From Nitrospirota bacterium (lineage in GTDB: Bacteria; Nitrospirota; Thermodesulfovibrionia; Thermodesulfovibrionales; Dissulfurispiraceae), in the NCBI GenBank assembly GCA_023476565.1, contig JAMCVZ010000073.1, positions 1-54,064 on the forward strand: a DNA stretch of 54,064 bases. The letters are read 5' to 3'. The translations under genes and the position numbers were made by a program. Positions 22,311 to 31,081 of the stretch are shown piece after piece (position 1 is the first letter of the stretch; each line of letters begins with the position of its first letter). Below the pieces are notes generated by a model, which was given only the letters and a program-made list of their open reading frames with translations, was not told where the DNA came from and made no database searches.

Positions 22311-23345
22311 CTTACTTGACTTAATTGCAATGAAGGGATACTATAGGCAGCATGCCACGCCAGGCGAGACTTGATTTTCCCGGCACCTTGCACCATGCGA
22401 TATGCAGGGGAATTGAAAAACGCAAGATCGTCACTGACGATCAGGACCGGGATACTTTTGTAAAACGGTTGGGACAAACAGCCACCGAAACTGGAACTAT
22501 CATTTACGCTTGGGCCTTAATGACGAACCATGCCCATATTTTTCTTAGAAGCGGTACCAAGGGCATATCACAGTTCATGAGGAAACTGTTGACAGGGTAT
22601 GCCGTTACCTACAATCGGAGGTACGACAGGCACGGCTATTTGTTTCAGAATCGGTATAAATCCATAATATGCGAAGAAGAGCCTTATTTTCTCGAACTTG
22701 TAAGGTACATCCATCTCAATCCGATGCGGGTGGGCCTGGTGTTTACACTGGATGAACTGGACAGGTATCCTTATTGCGGGCACAGTATTCTCATGGGGAT
22801 GCACTCGCAGAAGTGGCAGGATCGGGATTATGTGCTGGGCCGGTTCGGAGCAACGGAAAGGAAGGCGAAAAGAGAATACAGAAAATTTATCGAAGCAGGT
22901 ATTGGACAGGGGAGACGACTGGAATTGGTAGGCGGAGGGCTGATCCGATCGGCGGGCGGATGGGCGCAGGTGATATCAATGAGGAGGAAAAAGGAAACCG
23001 GCTTTTCTGATGAAAGAATACTGGGCAGCGGTAAATTTGTCGAAAAGATGGTTTCTGAAGCTGAAGAAAGACAGAAAAAAATGTTTTCAGGATCACGGGC
23101 GGAAATAGTTGAAGAAGTGCTGAAATCTGTGTGCGATAAAGAAGGGGTTCAAATTTCAGAGTTGAAGGGTGGCAGTCGGCGGCGAATAATTTCACAGATC
23201 CGCATGAAAATATCCCATCAATTAATTGAGGGGCATGGTATCCCGATGGCAACAGTAGCGCGAGAAGTCGGAGTGACTACCTCGGCGCTTTCCAAAATGA
23301 TGAAAAAAACACGGACTAAAAGTTGACTAATTCAACAACGTCCCC
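22297..23345 (+). mobile_element. RAYT element 2 with 14-bp inverted ends
   Basis: GGGGACGTTGTTGA at 22297-22310 and its exact reverse complement TCAACAACGTCCCC at 23332-23345 bound one transposase gene. The element inserted at the 3' end of the arginase-like gene, providing its stop codon. The ends share the GGGGAC lead with the RAYT-1 family but differ after that, so they define a second specificity. Confidence 0.8.
22352..23326 (+). CDS. REP-associated tyrosine transposase, long form
   Basis: This 324-residue Y1 transposase starts MPRQARLDFPGTLHHAICRG, with the HUH motif in TNHAHIFLRSG and the catalytic-tyrosine helix in YFLELVRYIHLNPMRVGLV. The C-terminal third (from about residue 230) is an added helical domain ending in a helix-turn-helix-like segment (HGIPMATVAREVGVTTSAL). 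It resembles the DnaA-C/Xre-like tail found in the longer RAYT group. No frameshift is visible. It is a different subfamily from the 221-residue transposase at the window start, and both sit inside inverted repeats. Confidence 0.9.
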   Translation: MPRQARLDFPGTLHHAICRGIEKRKIVTDDQDRDTFVKRLGQTATETGTIIYAWALMTNHAHIFLRSGTKGISQFMRKLLTGYAVTYNRRYDRHGYLFQNRYKSIICEEEPYFLELVRYIHLNPMRVGLVFTLDELDRYPYCGHSILMGMHSQKWQDRDYVLGRFGATERKAKREYRKFIEAGIGQGRRLELVGGGLIRSAGGWAQVISMRRKKETGFSDERILGSGKFVEKMVSEAEERQKKMFSGSRAEIVEEVLKSVCDKEGVQISELKGGSRRRIISQIRMKISHQLIEGHGIPMATVAREVGVTTSALSKMMKKTRTKS

Positions 23346-25646: not shown

Positions 25647-26321
25647 ATGACACTATCACAGGCAAAGGCAGTATTTATATGGGGCACGGTGAGCTCGGCG
25701 GTTATCCTGCTTGCACTCACCTATAATTCTCTCTCGCAGATCCCGCAGAGAACCCATGAAGACAGACTGGACGCACAGGTGGCTTCGGGCAAATGGGTAT
25801 GGCAAAAGCATAACTGCAACGACTGCCATACAATCCTCGGGATAGGGGGATATTATGCGCCTGACCTTACGAAAGTGATGAGTTACCGGGACGCCGGCTG
25901 GATGAAGAGGTTTCTCAAAGACCCTGAGAAAGTCTGGCCGGCAGACAGGAAAATGCCGAATCTTCACCTGACAGATCAGGAGATAACTGAGCTCACCGCA
26001 TTCCTCGGCTGGGTGAACGGGATAGACACAAACAACTGGCCTCCGAAGCCGGTGGCGGCTGCGGCGGCGACGGCTTCTGAAAAGCCCGGAGAGGCTGTAT
26101 TCAAGGCCCAGGGGTGTTCGGCCTGCCATACAATTAACGGTGTCGGCGGTAAGGTAGGACCTGACCTCACAAAGGTCGGCGGCAGGCGGACTAAAGAGTG
26201 GATAGAAGAGCAGCTTAAAAATCCCAAATCGCATAATCCTGATTCCATTATGCCGAGTTATGCGAAGCTCCCGGAGAAAGATAGGGAAGCCCTTGTTGAC
26301 TATCTTTCCGGGCTGAAATAA
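25647..26321 (+). CDS. norC: NorC-like cytochrome c subunit with two haem c sites
   Basis: This 224-residue protein has one N-terminal membrane helix (about residues 8-28) and the NorC-type segment VWQKHNCNDCHTILGIGGYY with CNDCH (57-61). That part is the standard electron-entry subunit of cNOR. A second cytochrome c domain with CSACH (157-161) follows after an Ala-rich linker and ends in the MPSYAKLP methionine region. Usual NorC is about 150 residues with one haem, so this is a fusion with a soluble-type cytochrome. GGAGG precedes the ATG. norB follows after 12 bases. Confidence 0.92.
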   Translation: MTLSQAKAVFIWGTVSSAVILLALTYNSLSQIPQRTHEDRLDAQVASGKWVWQKHNCNDCHTILGIGGYYAPDLTKVMSYRDAGWMKRFLKDPEKVWPADRKMPNLHLTDQEITELTAFLGWVNGIDTNNWPPKPVAAAAATASEKPGEAVFKAQGCSACHTINGVGGKVGPDLTKVGGRRTKEWIEEQLKNPKSHNPDSIMPSYAKLPEKDREALVDYLSGLK

Positions 26322-26333
26322 GGAGGCTTGGAA

Positions 26334-27665
26334 ATGAAATACGAATCCCAGAAGATTGCATATAATTATTTTGTCGTTGCAACGCTCCTCTTCGGCCTGC
26401 AGGTGATCTTCGGCCTTATCACCGGCGCAAAGTATGTGTGGGATTTTGACCCGCTGCTGAATATTCTTCCCTTCAATACAGCGAGGGCGATACACATAAA
26501 TCTCCTCGTTGTCTGGCTCCTTTTCGGCTTTATGGGGGGGACCTACTATATAGTCCCGGAAGAGGCGAAAACAGAGATATACAGTCCAAAGCTCGCGCAG
26601 CTTCAGCTCTGGCTTTTTGCGGCCATAGGCGTCACCGCGATTATCGGCTATATCGCGGGCTGGTCATGGGGCATGCCGTTTCTCGAGCAGCCGACGGTTC
26701 TCAAGATAGGTATTGTTGTTGTCGCCCTGATATTCCTCTTCAATGTCTTTATGACCATGATAAAAACAAAGGAGTGGACAGTCATACAGGGCGTGCTGCT
26801 TGGTGGACTCGTGATGCTCGCCCTGCTGTTCCTCTTCGGAATATTCTTCATGAAAAACCTGACAACGCAATACTATTACTGGTGGTGGGTCATCCACCTG
26901 TGGGTGGAAGGGGCGTGGGAGCTCATCACCGGCTCTATCATGGCCTTTATCCTCTTGAAGCTCACAGGGGTTGACCGGGAGCTGGTCGAAAAATGGCTTT
27001 ATATAGAGGTCGGCCTTGTCCTCTTTACCGGCATGGCCGGCACAGGACATCACTACTACTGGATCGGAACGCCGAAATACTGGTTGTGGGTTGGAGCGGT
27101 TTTCAGTGCCCTTGAGCCGCTTCCGATACTCTTCATGGTCATTGACACCCTCCGTGATGTAAAGGAAAGAAAGGTGGAAATAGAAAATAAACTGGTGCTT
27201 TACTGGGCAGTGGGCGGTGTTGTCATGCACTTCTTCGGAGCAGGGGTGTGGGGCTTTGCGCATACGCTTCCCCAGATAAACCAGTGGACGCACGGGACGC
27301 AGATCACCGCCTCGCACGGCCATTTCGCTTTTTTCGGCGCCTATGTCATGCTGAATCTCACCATGATATACTTTGCGCTTCCGCAGATAAAGGGGGTCAA
27401 GGTCTTCAATCAGGGGCTTGGTTTCAAGGCCTTCTGGACAATGAACTTCTTTATGATCATCATGGTGCTCGGGCTTGCCGTCGCAGGCGTTATACAGACA
27501 TATTTCCAGAGGGTTCTGGGAATGGACTATCTGACGACCCAGGGTTTCATGAGATTGTGGTTTGCCGTATTCTGGGTATCTGCATGGGGATTTGCAGCAG
27601 GGGCCTTAATGTATATTATCGATTTCTTTACTATGGGAAGGATACAAAAATCTCCAGCAGGATAA
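26334..27665 (+). CDS. norB: Nitric oxide reductase catalytic subunit (cNOR type)
   Basis: This 443-residue, roughly 12-helix haem-copper superfamily protein reduces 2 NO to N2O. I see the low-spin haem ligands His54 (RAIHINLL) and His330 (ASHGHF), with high-spin His328. The FeB ligands are His188 (VIHLWVEG), His239 and His240 (GTGHHYYW) and Glu192. The second conserved glutamate is Glu261 in SALEPLP. All match cNOR rather than qNOR; no N-terminal quinol extension is present. The ATG at 26334 is set by AGGAGG at 26321-26326; a TTG at 26328 is too close. The partner is the preceding NorC. Confidence 0.95.
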   Translation: MKYESQKIAYNYFVVATLLFGLQVIFGLITGAKYVWDFDPLLNILPFNTARAIHINLLVVWLLFGFMGGTYYIVPEEAKTEIYSPKLAQLQLWLFAAIGVTAIIGYIAGWSWGMPFLEQPTVLKIGIVVVALIFLFNVFMTMIKTKEWTVIQGVLLGGLVMLALLFLFGIFFMKNLTTQYYYWWWVIHLWVEGAWELITGSIMAFILLKLTGVDRELVEKWLYIEVGLVLFTGMAGTGHHYYWIGTPKYWLWVGAVFSALEPLPILFMVIDTLRDVKERKVEIENKLVLYWAVGGVVMHFFGAGVWGFAHTLPQINQWTHGTQITASHGHFAFFGAYVMLNLTMIYFALPQIKGVKVFNQGLGFKAFWTMNFFMIIMVLGLAVAGVIQTYFQRVLGMDYLTTQGFMRLWFAVFWVSAWGFAAGALMYIIDFFTMGRIQKSPAG

Positions 27666-27812: not shown

Positions 27813-28148
27813 ATGAAAAGCGATAGGTTCATATTTGCCCTGGTCGCCATCGTTGTGTTCGCCGCAGCCGGAGCAGGCATCTTTTATTTTTTCAGCAAAT
27901 TTATTGATTTCAGCAATGCCTGGGGAATCGAGACGGTTGCGCAAAAGAGCATTGCAGCAAAACAAGCAGGGGGCGCTGTTGTTTTTAATCCCCCTCTGCC
28001 CCTGGATGCGCCGGCGGATATAGAAGATGCGGCTTTTTCCTATAAAAATATGCCGAAGGGCAATCCCGACCTTACCACTGAAGACGCCCTGGATGCAGCG
28101 GCGTTTGTTACAGCTCGGCCGCGACCTCGCTTTATACCCAAAAAGTGA
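27813..28148 (+). CDS. Membrane-anchored haem-less cytochrome relic (TsdA-like edges)
   Basis: The 111-residue product has an N-terminal helix (about residues 7-30) followed by a short periplasmic part. It shows FNPPLPLDAPADIEDAAF and then KNMPKGNPDLTTEDALDAAAF and RPRPRF. These resemble the first and last segments of TsdA-type dihaem cytochromes, where the end reads like MP.G...LT..EA.DVAAF...RPRP. The middle, with both CXXCH sites, is absent and the protein has no cysteine pair. The frame is open and has a ribosome site (GGAGG), so it may be expressed as a small membrane protein. It precedes the CydA-like gene by 12 bases. Confidence 0.6.
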   Translation: MKSDRFIFALVAIVVFAAAGAGIFYFFSKFIDFSNAWGIETVAQKSIAAKQAGGAVVFNPPLPLDAPADIEDAAFSYKNMPKGNPDLTTEDALDAAAFVTARPRPRFIPKK

Positions 28149-28160
28149 TAGGAGATATCC

Positions 28161-29522
28161 ATGCAATTCCCCATTTTCCAGACGCCGTATTTAGGCAACG
28201 GCATGACAATAGCATTGGATGCCGTGCCGCATGTGATTATCAGCCACGGGCTGGCTATCGGCGCAATAACGCTCATCGTAATAAGCGAATACTTCGGCTT
28301 CAGGAAGTCTTCCAGGGAATGGGAAGCTTTTGCAAAGGAATTTCTGAGATTCACCATTATCATCACCACAGGGCTCGGAGCAATAACCGGGGTCGGCATA
28401 TGGCTCATTACCAGCGCCCTGTCGCCGAGGGGCATAGGGTCTCTGCTCCGGATATTTTTCTGGCCGTGGTTTGCTGAATGGATAGCCTTCACGTTAGAGG
28501 TGATCGTCATTCTTATCTACTACTTTACCTGGGATACATGGACAGGTGAGAAGAAAAAACAGCATATTTATCTCGGCGCAAGCTATATCGTTTTTTCCCT
28601 TTCTTCCGCCTTTTTGATTACCGGCATACTGGGCTTCATGCTTACCCCCGACGGCTGGCCCTGGGATAAAAGTTTCTGGTCTGCTTTTTTCAATCCGAGC
28701 TTTCTCCCCCAATTGTTATTAAGAGTAAGCATGGCCTTTGCGCTGGGCGCTATATTTTCTGTGGCATTCCTTTTTGCTACGCGAAGGGAATCTGCTTTTC
28801 GCAAAGAGGCCCTTCGCTTTTTCGGAAAAGTTTCTTCCATCTCATTTTCTGCGACAGGTATATTTTCCTGGTGGTATTTCACCGTTGTTCCGTCGGCATT
28901 TAAAACACACGCGATTTTCTCTGTCCTGACCTCCCGGTTCTCTCAGCATCCTGAAATCTTCTATGGAATTAATGCTGCAGGCATATTTATGTTATTCCTG
29001 TTTGCCCTGTTTGGTCTAAGGGGCGCCGTTTTTTTGTCGAGGATCCTCATTATCCCCGTGCTTTTGGTATCTATGAGCTTCGTCATGGAATTTGAACGGG
29101 TGCGGGAGTTTATCAGGGGGCCCTATCTGCTGCCCGGGTACATGTATGCCAACCAGGTCCTGCTCAAGGAAGTCCCTTTATTGGATAAGGCGGGTATGCT
29201 GAAAAACAGCTACTGGTATAACATGACTACTCATGGTCCTGACCCCATAAACCAGGGCGCATACCTGTTTGCAGAGAACTGCTCCATGTGCCATACCATA
29301 GGCGGCGTCAATGATATTAAAGAAAGGGTCAAGGGGAGAACAGAGGACGGGATTTTTGTTATCCTCGGCCATACGCAAGACATGGTTCCCTTTATGCCGC
29401 CTTTTTCAGGAACAGACCAGGAACGGCGGATCATGGCCGGCTTTCTCCATCAATTGGCAAACGGGAAGATCATTTTAGGGGCGTCTTCCCGCTTTGCGCC
29501 ATTAAGGGGGGGGGAGAAATGA
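28161..29522 (+). CDS. Cytochrome bd-superfamily (CydA-like) subunit with C-terminal cytochrome c
   Basis: This 453-residue protein has about nine membrane helices related to CydA. Helix 1 has His24 and His29 (VPHVIISHG). The helix with FFWPWFAEWIAFTLEVI places Glu105 and Glu113 like the conserved CydA proton/haem glutamates. At the usual haem b558 histidine an Arg (R188, LLLRVSMAF) appears, by my eye alignment, and there is no Q-loop. A cytochrome c domain follows, with CSMCH (374-378) and an axial Met in MVPFMPPF. It is therefore likely fed by or feeding c-type cytochromes rather than quinol. It overlaps the next gene by 4 bases (ATGA). Confidence 0.8.
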   Translation: MQFPIFQTPYLGNGMTIALDAVPHVIISHGLAIGAITLIVISEYFGFRKSSREWEAFAKEFLRFTIIITTGLGAITGVGIWLITSALSPRGIGSLLRIFFWPWFAEWIAFTLEVIVILIYYFTWDTWTGEKKKQHIYLGASYIVFSLSSAFLITGILGFMLTPDGWPWDKSFWSAFFNPSFLPQLLLRVSMAFALGAIFSVAFLFATRRESAFRKEALRFFGKVSSISFSATGIFSWWYFTVVPSAFKTHAIFSVLTSRFSQHPEIFYGINAAGIFMLFLFALFGLRGAVFLSRILIIPVLLVSMSFVMEFERVREFIRGPYLLPGYMYANQVLLKEVPLLDKAGMLKNSYWYNMTTHGPDPINQGAYLFAENCSMCHTIGGVNDIKERVKGRTEDGIFVILGHTQDMVPFMPPFSGTDQERRIMAGFLHQLANGKIILGASSRFAPLRGGEK

Positions 29523-31081
29523 ATAGCCTTTTTGATATCCTGCTTGAAAGACCCCTTCCCGATGAGTGGCTGCAGGGTCTTCTTTTCACCTCTTTTACTC
29601 TGCATATGGTATTCGTCCTTTTGACGCTAGGGACGGCCATCCTTTCCGTCTACTATTTCATCGATGCCCAGTGGGGCGGAAAGCCGAACGAATTGCGGCT
29701 GGATAAGAGGATTTTAAAAACTTTCATGGCGCACAAAAGCCTGGCAGTAGTGTTAGGAGTCGCTCCATTACTTTTAATCCAGGTCGGTTTTTCCGTTCCG
29801 TTTTTCACCGGGGTTAATCTGCTCGCGCCTTTCTGGATGCTGCTTATTGTATTTCTATCGGTTGCGTTTCTCTCTTTCGATGTCCTGGCACACAAATTAT
29901 ATGTCCATCGTTATTTACATCTGGCATCCGGAACTATTGCGCTCGTTTCTCTTCTTGCAGTTCCTGCTCTATTTGTTGCAATACTGGTGACGGCGGAAAA
30001 TTCCGATCAGTGGATGACTATCATCGCTCACGGTTATCGATTAAGCGGTCCGCCGGCGCGCCATTGGTTGTTCAGGTATTTGCATGTCCTCGGGGCCGCC
30101 CTTGTATTCGGGGCGGCATTCCATTATTTCTTCTCAACAAAAGATGAAACCGAAAAGAGATCATTGCTTAAATGGATTGTTGCCGGGATATTACTTCAGA
30201 TTATCCTCGGTATAACGCTCTACAGTTCTTTATTGGAAAAACCTGATTACATCACCAATGCTTCTCTACTTGCCGGCGTCCTCGGCGCCGCTTTATTATT
30301 ATGGATAATTTATCTCAGCATGGATAAAAAGAACACTTTAAATATTAAAACAGTACCCCCTCTTTTAATGCTCATACTTGTGCCAATGCTTTTAACAAGG
30401 CAATTTATTCAGAATAAGAAATTTATGCCCTTTGAAAAGCAGTTGCAGGCCAACGCTCAGGCTTATCAAAAAAAGGCGCAGCCCTATAACCGGGAAGCCC
30501 TTGACAAATATCAATCCGATATGAATATCGTCTATGATAATGGAGAGACGATCTATGTAAGAAGCTGTGCTTTTTGCCACGGCGAAAAGGCGGATGGTAA
30601 CGGAGCAGAAGCAAAAAATCTTGCAATCCCTCCTGAAGACATATCTGCCGTCAGAACGACCCGTCGCTATCTTCACACAATTCTTGCCGGAGGTGTTCCC
30701 GGCTCCGCCATGCCTTACTTTACTGTTTTTGATAAATATAAATTAGACGGCTTAATCGACTATCTGGATAAAAAATATCATGTTTTAAGTTTACCCGAAC
30801 CCATTCCTGCGTCAGTCTCTGACGCAGCATTGCGGCAGGCCCAAAAAATTTATAATGAAACCTGCTCTCAATGTCATGGAATGGACGGCAGGGGTTCAGC
30901 GCCTTCAAAAGGTTTCCAGCCGCCGCCTCCGGATTTTACTATGTACAGCTTATCGCCTAAACGGGCCTTTGATGTCATTACAAACGGTTATATAGGAACT
31001 GTGATGTCTCCATTTAGTACCCTGCCGGAAGAGGTCCGCTGGGGCCTGGTAAAAATTATTAATGATAAAAGAAGGCAATGA
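29519..31081 (+). CDS. CydA'-like membrane subunit with two cytochrome c domains
   Basis: This 520-residue protein has about eight helices in residues 15-295, rich in His (His29 in TLHMVFVLLTLG; His189 in FRYLHVLGAALVFGAAFHYFF, which resembles the CydA b558-ligand helix). It does not look like CydB, so I read it as a second CydA-type subunit. Two cytochrome c domains follow, with CAFCH (350-354) and CSQCH (449-453). The ATG overlaps the previous stop, so the two proteins are probably one complex carrying three haem c. Oxygen, NO or another acceptor cannot be decided from sequence. Confidence 0.75.
   Translation: MNSLFDILLERPLPDEWLQGLLFTSFTLHMVFVLLTLGTAILSVYYFIDAQWGGKPNELRLDKRILKTFMAHKSLAVVLGVAPLLLIQVGFSVPFFTGVNLLAPFWMLLIVFLSVAFLSFDVLAHKLYVHRYLHLASGTIALVSLLAVPALFVAILVTAENSDQWMTIIAHGYRLSGPPARHWLFRYLHVLGAALVFGAAFHYFFSTKDETEKRSLLKWIVAGILLQIILGITLYSSLLEKPDYITNASLLAGVLGAALLLWIIYLSMDKKNTLNIKTVPPLLMLILVPMLLTRQFIQNKKFMPFEKQLQANAQAYQKKAQPYNREALDKYQSDMNIVYDNGETIYVRSCAFCHGEKADGNGAEAKNLAIPPEDISAVRTTRRYLHTILAGGVPGSAMPYFTVFDKYKLDGLIDYLDKKYHVLSLPEPIPASVSDAALRQAQKIYNETCSQCHGMDGRGSAPSKGFQPPPPDFTMYSLSPKRAFDVITNGYIGTVMSPFSTLPEEVRWGLVKIINDKRRQ

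Follow-up and report, generated by a model that had tools for sequence, protein, structure and literature searches.

What does a pair of CydA-like membrane proteins do when both carry c-type haems and lie beside a nitric oxide reductase? The question is raised by two genes, here called A and B, in a stretch of 54,064 nucleotides (the window) from contig JAMCVZ010000073.1 of a Nitrospirota bacterium. A first interpretation of the same DNA, made without database searches (the sequence-only reading), had offered a terminal oxidase, an NO-handling complex or an electron-export complex. Table 1 lists the features on which our answer depends. Both reading frames (453 aa for A, 520 aa for B) are intact, they overlap by the ATGA noted earlier, and the c-type haem motifs, one in A (C374-C377-H378) and two in B, fall inside Pfam cytochrome c domains as had been supposed.

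Table 1. Features of the window around the A-B gene pair (helix counts are rough, from hydropathy).
Feature	Coordinates	Strand	Remarks
norC-like gene (two CXXCH) and norB, neighbouring cNOR	25647..27665	+	outside the conserved operon
Perfect 14-bp inverted repeat, 11-nt loop	27706..27744	.	between norB and the tsdA remnant
P0003, remnant of a TsdA-family thiosulfate dehydrogenase	27813..28148	+	aligned with intact TsdA of G315, G026, G195 and G089
A (P0001), CydA-type catalytic subunit	28161..29522	+	about 8 membrane helices; C-terminal monohaem cytochrome c
Cytochrome c domain of A, residues 363-429	29247..29447	+	CXXCH at 374-378; PF13442, 31.5 bits (cut-off 27)
B (P0002), CydA paralogue (A'-type partner)	29519..31081	+	about 8 membrane helices; C-terminal dihaem c extension
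CcoP-like dihaem cytochrome c extension of B, about residues 341-511	30539..31051	+	PF13442 twice

Protein A belongs to the CydA superfamily, as the sequence-only reading held. It scores 51.4 bits (E 5e-14) against PF01654 (Cyt_bd_oxida_I), for which the cut-off is 26.2; hmmscan does not list PF01654 for A, probably because of the HMMER filters. In a profile-profile comparison by hhalign, A matches CydA at E 2e-15, where the best block-shuffled null reached 1.5e-4; thirty block-shuffled versions served as the control for comparisons of this kind. In the Escherichia coli enzyme the axial ligands are Glu445 for haem b595, Glu99 for haem d, and His186 and Met393 for haem b558 (PMC6853902). A keeps the residues belonging to both active-site haems, with H24, E106, E113, E316 and R319 aligned to E. 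coli H19, E99, E107, E445 and R448, and all 22 relatives of A keep them too, apart from a single Asp at E113 in Thermus. The haem c motif of A is invariant among these relatives. Both ligands of b558 are missing: the position of M393 lacks a Met, and the equivalent of H186 is L187 when aligned by MAFFT and R188 when aligned by hhalign. Arg188, the replacement pointed out earlier, lies at or beside the His186 position and is invariant in the family. Equivalents of the quinol-site residues K252 and E257 (in the Q-loop) and R391 are absent from all A proteins aligned, in agreement with the earlier failure to see a Q-loop by eye. With the b595 and d residues present and those of b558 and the quinol site gone, A should be able to hold the O2-reducing haem pair, and neither b558 nor a quinol site.

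Protein B is a paralogue of the same family. Profile-profile comparison relates it to A at E 2e-14 (best shuffled null 4e-4), to OR-N-like proteins at E 3e-7 (0.011) and to CydA at E 2e-5 (0.0067). By the same method neither A nor B shows any likeness to CydB (E about 0.6), just as had been remarked. His29 is kept in 23 of 23 B proteins, and His189, at the site where A has lost the b558 ligand and where a His had been noticed in B, in 21 of 23. An invariant Arg (R294) occupies the position of the b595 ligand (the E445 equivalent), and B is not predicted to assemble a di-haem catalytic site of its own. It can therefore be regarded as a non-catalytic partner of the A' type, though one in which a haem b may yet be bound. 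Structure prediction added nothing here: AlphaFold models of A (from two sequences, pLDDT 38.8) and of B (from a single sequence, pLDDT 44.9) were unusable.

The dihaem tail of B marks a sub-clade, designated window-type. Two CXXCH motifs are found in all seven window-type B proteins, while none of the 16 others has a CXXCH at all. Against the CcoP model TIGR00782 the tail scores 39 bits in the window protein and 39-47 bits overall, which is under the model's cut-off. TsdB was considered and rejected as a source of the tail, to which it shows no detectable likeness; the TsdBA structure 5lo9 is missing among the matches. From the rough count of about eight helices each, the C-terminal c domains of both proteins are predicted to lie in the periplasm.

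Profile alignments of the bd superfamily and a tree of 54 membrane domains, the check proposed with the sequence-only reading, placed neither protein in an unrelated family. A, B, quinol-type CydA and OR-N-like proteins form four groups, each beyond a fully supported branch, although the branches are long and their deeper order is uncertain. A and the OR-N-like proteins are separate clades (100/99 and 100/100), the four reference rows having been labelled OR-N by inference from length and distribution. The A tree and the B tree resolve the same three main sub-clades, which fits a pair travelling together: the window type, with Agrobacterium beside it; an octahaem type; and a monohaem type that includes Thermus and Methylosinus. 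Genomes with A-B pairs are spread across Nitrospirota and also include Thermus and two alphaproteobacteria, and the two genes adjoin in nearly every intact locus. The octahaem type takes its name from CydA-like fusions of 882-886 aa with eight CXXCH (L006:1501-4158, L007:127-2772, L008:1501-4149), each with an A'-type partner of 345-353 aa, in relatives of the same order and family.

A search of 396 genomes of the phylum found window-type pairs in six besides the window: G026, G195, G089, G315, G329 and G331, with A cut by a contig end in the last. The G026 locus is L003, from Nitrospirae bacterium FK3.bin35, and some of the relatives are metagenome bins. B is 99% and A 94% identical between G026 and G195 (L003:7637-9232; L053:7347-8942), which are placed in different families, and relationships among window-type pairs do not track kinship. 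Together these observations suggest horizontal transfer of the operon; for G026 and G195, bin contamination is an alternative.

Comparison with described systems sets the pair in context. Murali et al. in 2021 reportedly recognized two families of bd-type proteins that do not use quinol, OR-C and OR-N. A-B shares with both the loss of the quinol site and cytochrome c as the likely donor, and we expect A to belong to OR-C. The canonical CydAB (qOR) encoded at contig C62 of the same genome has the active-site haem residues and CydA-like profile of A, but A-B differs from it in lacking the Q-loop, the b558 ligands and CydB, and in having c haems and a CydA paralogue as partner. A CydAA'-type pairing without a quinol site has been proposed for OR-N (PMC10839748, PMC12342949, PMC13189123), and the donor of the non-quinol families has been called "likely cytochrome c" (PMC10839748). 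The 14-helix bd-like oxidase encoded beside nitrite oxidoreductase in Nitrospira and Nitrospina resembles A in its CydA-like N-terminus, its want of quinol-binding residues and its unproven function, but is longer, carries no fused c haem and lies in another gene neighbourhood (PMC3578206). Nearer at hand, the octahaem fusion (about 886 aa, partner about 350 aa) is the same superfamily pair as A-B, with seven further CXXCH on A and none on B. The cbb3 subunit CcoP has a dihaem c module like the B tail, but in B the module sits on a CydA paralogue and not on part of a haem-copper oxidase. A-B appears to be of a known kind, a non-quinol bd-type complex with c haems, that probably draws its electrons from cytochromes and not from quinols.

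Which cytochromes these might be is suggested by the gene order in relatives. An intact TsdA gene lies directly upstream of A in four of the six other window-type genomes (G026, G195, G089 and G315), which span four families; the gap between tsdA and A is 8 bp in G026 and G195. Compared with the solved TsdA structure 4wqc, an intact TsdA from these relatives gives E 2e-43 and has the haem-1 Cys aligned, and both CXXCH motifs and the Met of an NMP motif, a haem-2 ligand, are present in TsdA of all four. Beside the monohaem-type and octahaem-type loci compared, no TsdA match was found. A SoxB-like gene follows B in G026, in G195 and, partly, in G315, where the contig ends; its product scores 357 bits against TIGR04486, under the cut-off of 550. 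In G331 a thiosulfate dehydrogenase of a different family (NF052225, 397 bits, cut-off 300) is encoded downstream of the pair. TauE sulfite exporters are encoded near the pair in G315 and G331, and a DsrC-like gene near it in G329; dsrA is present in all seven window-type genomes. In Erythrobacter flavus, TsdA and SoxB have been placed in one thiosulfate pathway by genetics (PMC7608252); the present operon shares with that system and with TsdA/TsdB systems the Cys-ligand TsdA motif and with the former a SoxB-like neighbour, but has no separate TsdB and includes a bd-type oxidase. A thiosulfate-coupled origin of the window-type sub-clade is therefore likely on this evidence. Two further features were seen at these loci. 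At L055:7020-8375, TsdA has an extra C-terminal haem c domain, for three CXXCH in total, possibly a built-in electron-accepting unit. A solute-binding-like protein (SBP_bac_11) recurs near the operon (L003:4507-5343, L062:3714-4229), with no obvious signal peptide in L003.

In the window itself the presumed donor is broken. The remnant P0003, the only trace of TsdA in the window genome, matches both ends of TsdA and has lost about 173 residues in frame, among them the two CXXCH haem sites together with the Cys ligand. The junction itself carries a short sequence similar to both ends (GATGCGGCTTT); an assembly error might account for the apparent deletion. A search of the window genome with NF052225 gave no match, the positive control being equally silent. 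A and B, in comparison with those of G026, each show a dN/dS of about 0.13 and are therefore both constrained, although part of this purifying selection may be older than the loss of TsdA. In G017 (C19, L064:5878-6376), TsdA and A survive only as short fragments between SBP-like and SoxB-like genes, so the whole operon has been lost there too, at a conserved site.

The broken window gene, together with the G329 pair, which has no TsdA, means that thiosulfate cannot be the sole donor, and both cases lend weight to a broader alternative. A-B might be a generic cytochrome c oxidase that scavenges oxygen at low concentrations and draws on the general periplasmic cytochrome pool, with TsdA only riding along in an operon that has moved horizontally and the loss of TsdA costing the window organism nothing. 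A-B pairs without TsdA are indeed common across the phylum and elsewhere, and the window pair is still under constraint with no functional TsdA. Against this, TsdA stands directly before A in four genomes of four families, and another thiosulfate dehydrogenase lies beside the pair in G331. We consider this explanation unlikely, if still a serious competitor.

We find it decidedly improbable that the complex runs backwards or with no part for O2, for instance by relaying electrons from one periplasmic cytochrome to another so that tetrathionate is reduced or electrons are exported. TsdA of Campylobacter can act as a tetrathionate reductase (PMC5146829), and the residue before the haem-2 Met in the present TsdA proteins is Asn, as in that reductive enzyme, where the oxidative Allochromatium vinosum enzyme has Lys. 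Since TsdA enzymes run both ways, this residue does not settle the direction by sequence. The dsrA gene of these organisms also speaks for such a role. Against it stand the conserved O2-reducing di-haem site residues of A and the absence of a quinol site from which TsdA could be fed with electrons.

The neighbouring cNOR is genuine (E 9e-130 for NorB against 3o0r chain B), and its adjacency is peculiar to the window genome: four of the six other window-type genomes carry norB on a different contig, and in the other two it was not found. Two transcription units may be divided by the perfect inverted repeat that lies between norB and the tsdA remnant; this repeat is present in a single copy in the genome, so we rejected it as a member of a repeat family, and consensus scans for promoters and terminators did no better than shuffles. 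That the pair is an NO reductase or an NO-detoxifying partner of cNOR is thus the weaker reading and a very remote one, since the adjacency is not conserved and the hairpin intervenes, even though norCB adjoins the pair here and bd oxidases can protect against NO (PMC10839748). Some details of the region deserve record. The C-terminal domain of the NorC-like protein (25647-26321) is above the SoxX cut-off (TIGR04485, 71 bits), and a second norB, 52% identical, lies at G000:C34. A protein with a Y1/IS200-like transposase domain, a kind linked to palindromic repeats, is encoded at 22352-23326; repeats matching it were not found in the window.

Of the roles first put forward, then, NO handling is not supported by the cNOR neighbourhood, and a terminal oxidase stays plausible for a diverged bd-type pair that carries c haems and has lost the quinol site. 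The explanation we favour, and hold to be moderately probable from the sequences, is that A-B is a quinol-independent O2 reductase whose window-type sub-clade arose as an electron sink for TsdA. A and B would form a heterodimer, B replacing CydB as a paralogous A' partner, and O2 would be reduced at the di-haem site held by A. Periplasmic donors would deliver electrons to the two haems of the B tail, the monohaem domain of A would take them over, and the membrane haems would receive them from the periplasmic side. Where B has this tail, the complex would have evolved to accept electrons from the TsdA of the same operon as it converts thiosulfate to tetrathionate, and in some genomes the SoxB-like hydrolase encoded downstream would join this route. 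In the window organism, where a deletion gutted TsdA, A-B would have been kept by selection in service of another cytochrome donor. A narrower version treats TsdA-A-B as a thiosulfate:O2 oxidoreductase dedicated to that reaction and free of quinone, encoded by a horizontally moving operon, the electrons flowing through a CcoP-like dihaem arm added to a CydA paralogue; we advance it tentatively, its chances being somewhat short of even.

In the literature searched, coverage of which was incomplete, we found no account of the operon, of a TsdA-linked bd pair, of a dihaem tail on B or of the broken donor. If the thiosulfate:O2 reading is true, a bd-type oxidase, and not a haem-copper oxidase, takes the electrons of thiosulfate, and bacteria that have dissimilatory sulfite reductase would gain a further route from thiosulfate to oxygen, one of bd type. 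With a thiosulfate dehydrogenase in the conserved operon, a non-quinol bd family has a specific candidate donor that can be assayed, and the window organism, its donor gene lost and its oxidase kept, is a natural experiment on that partnership.
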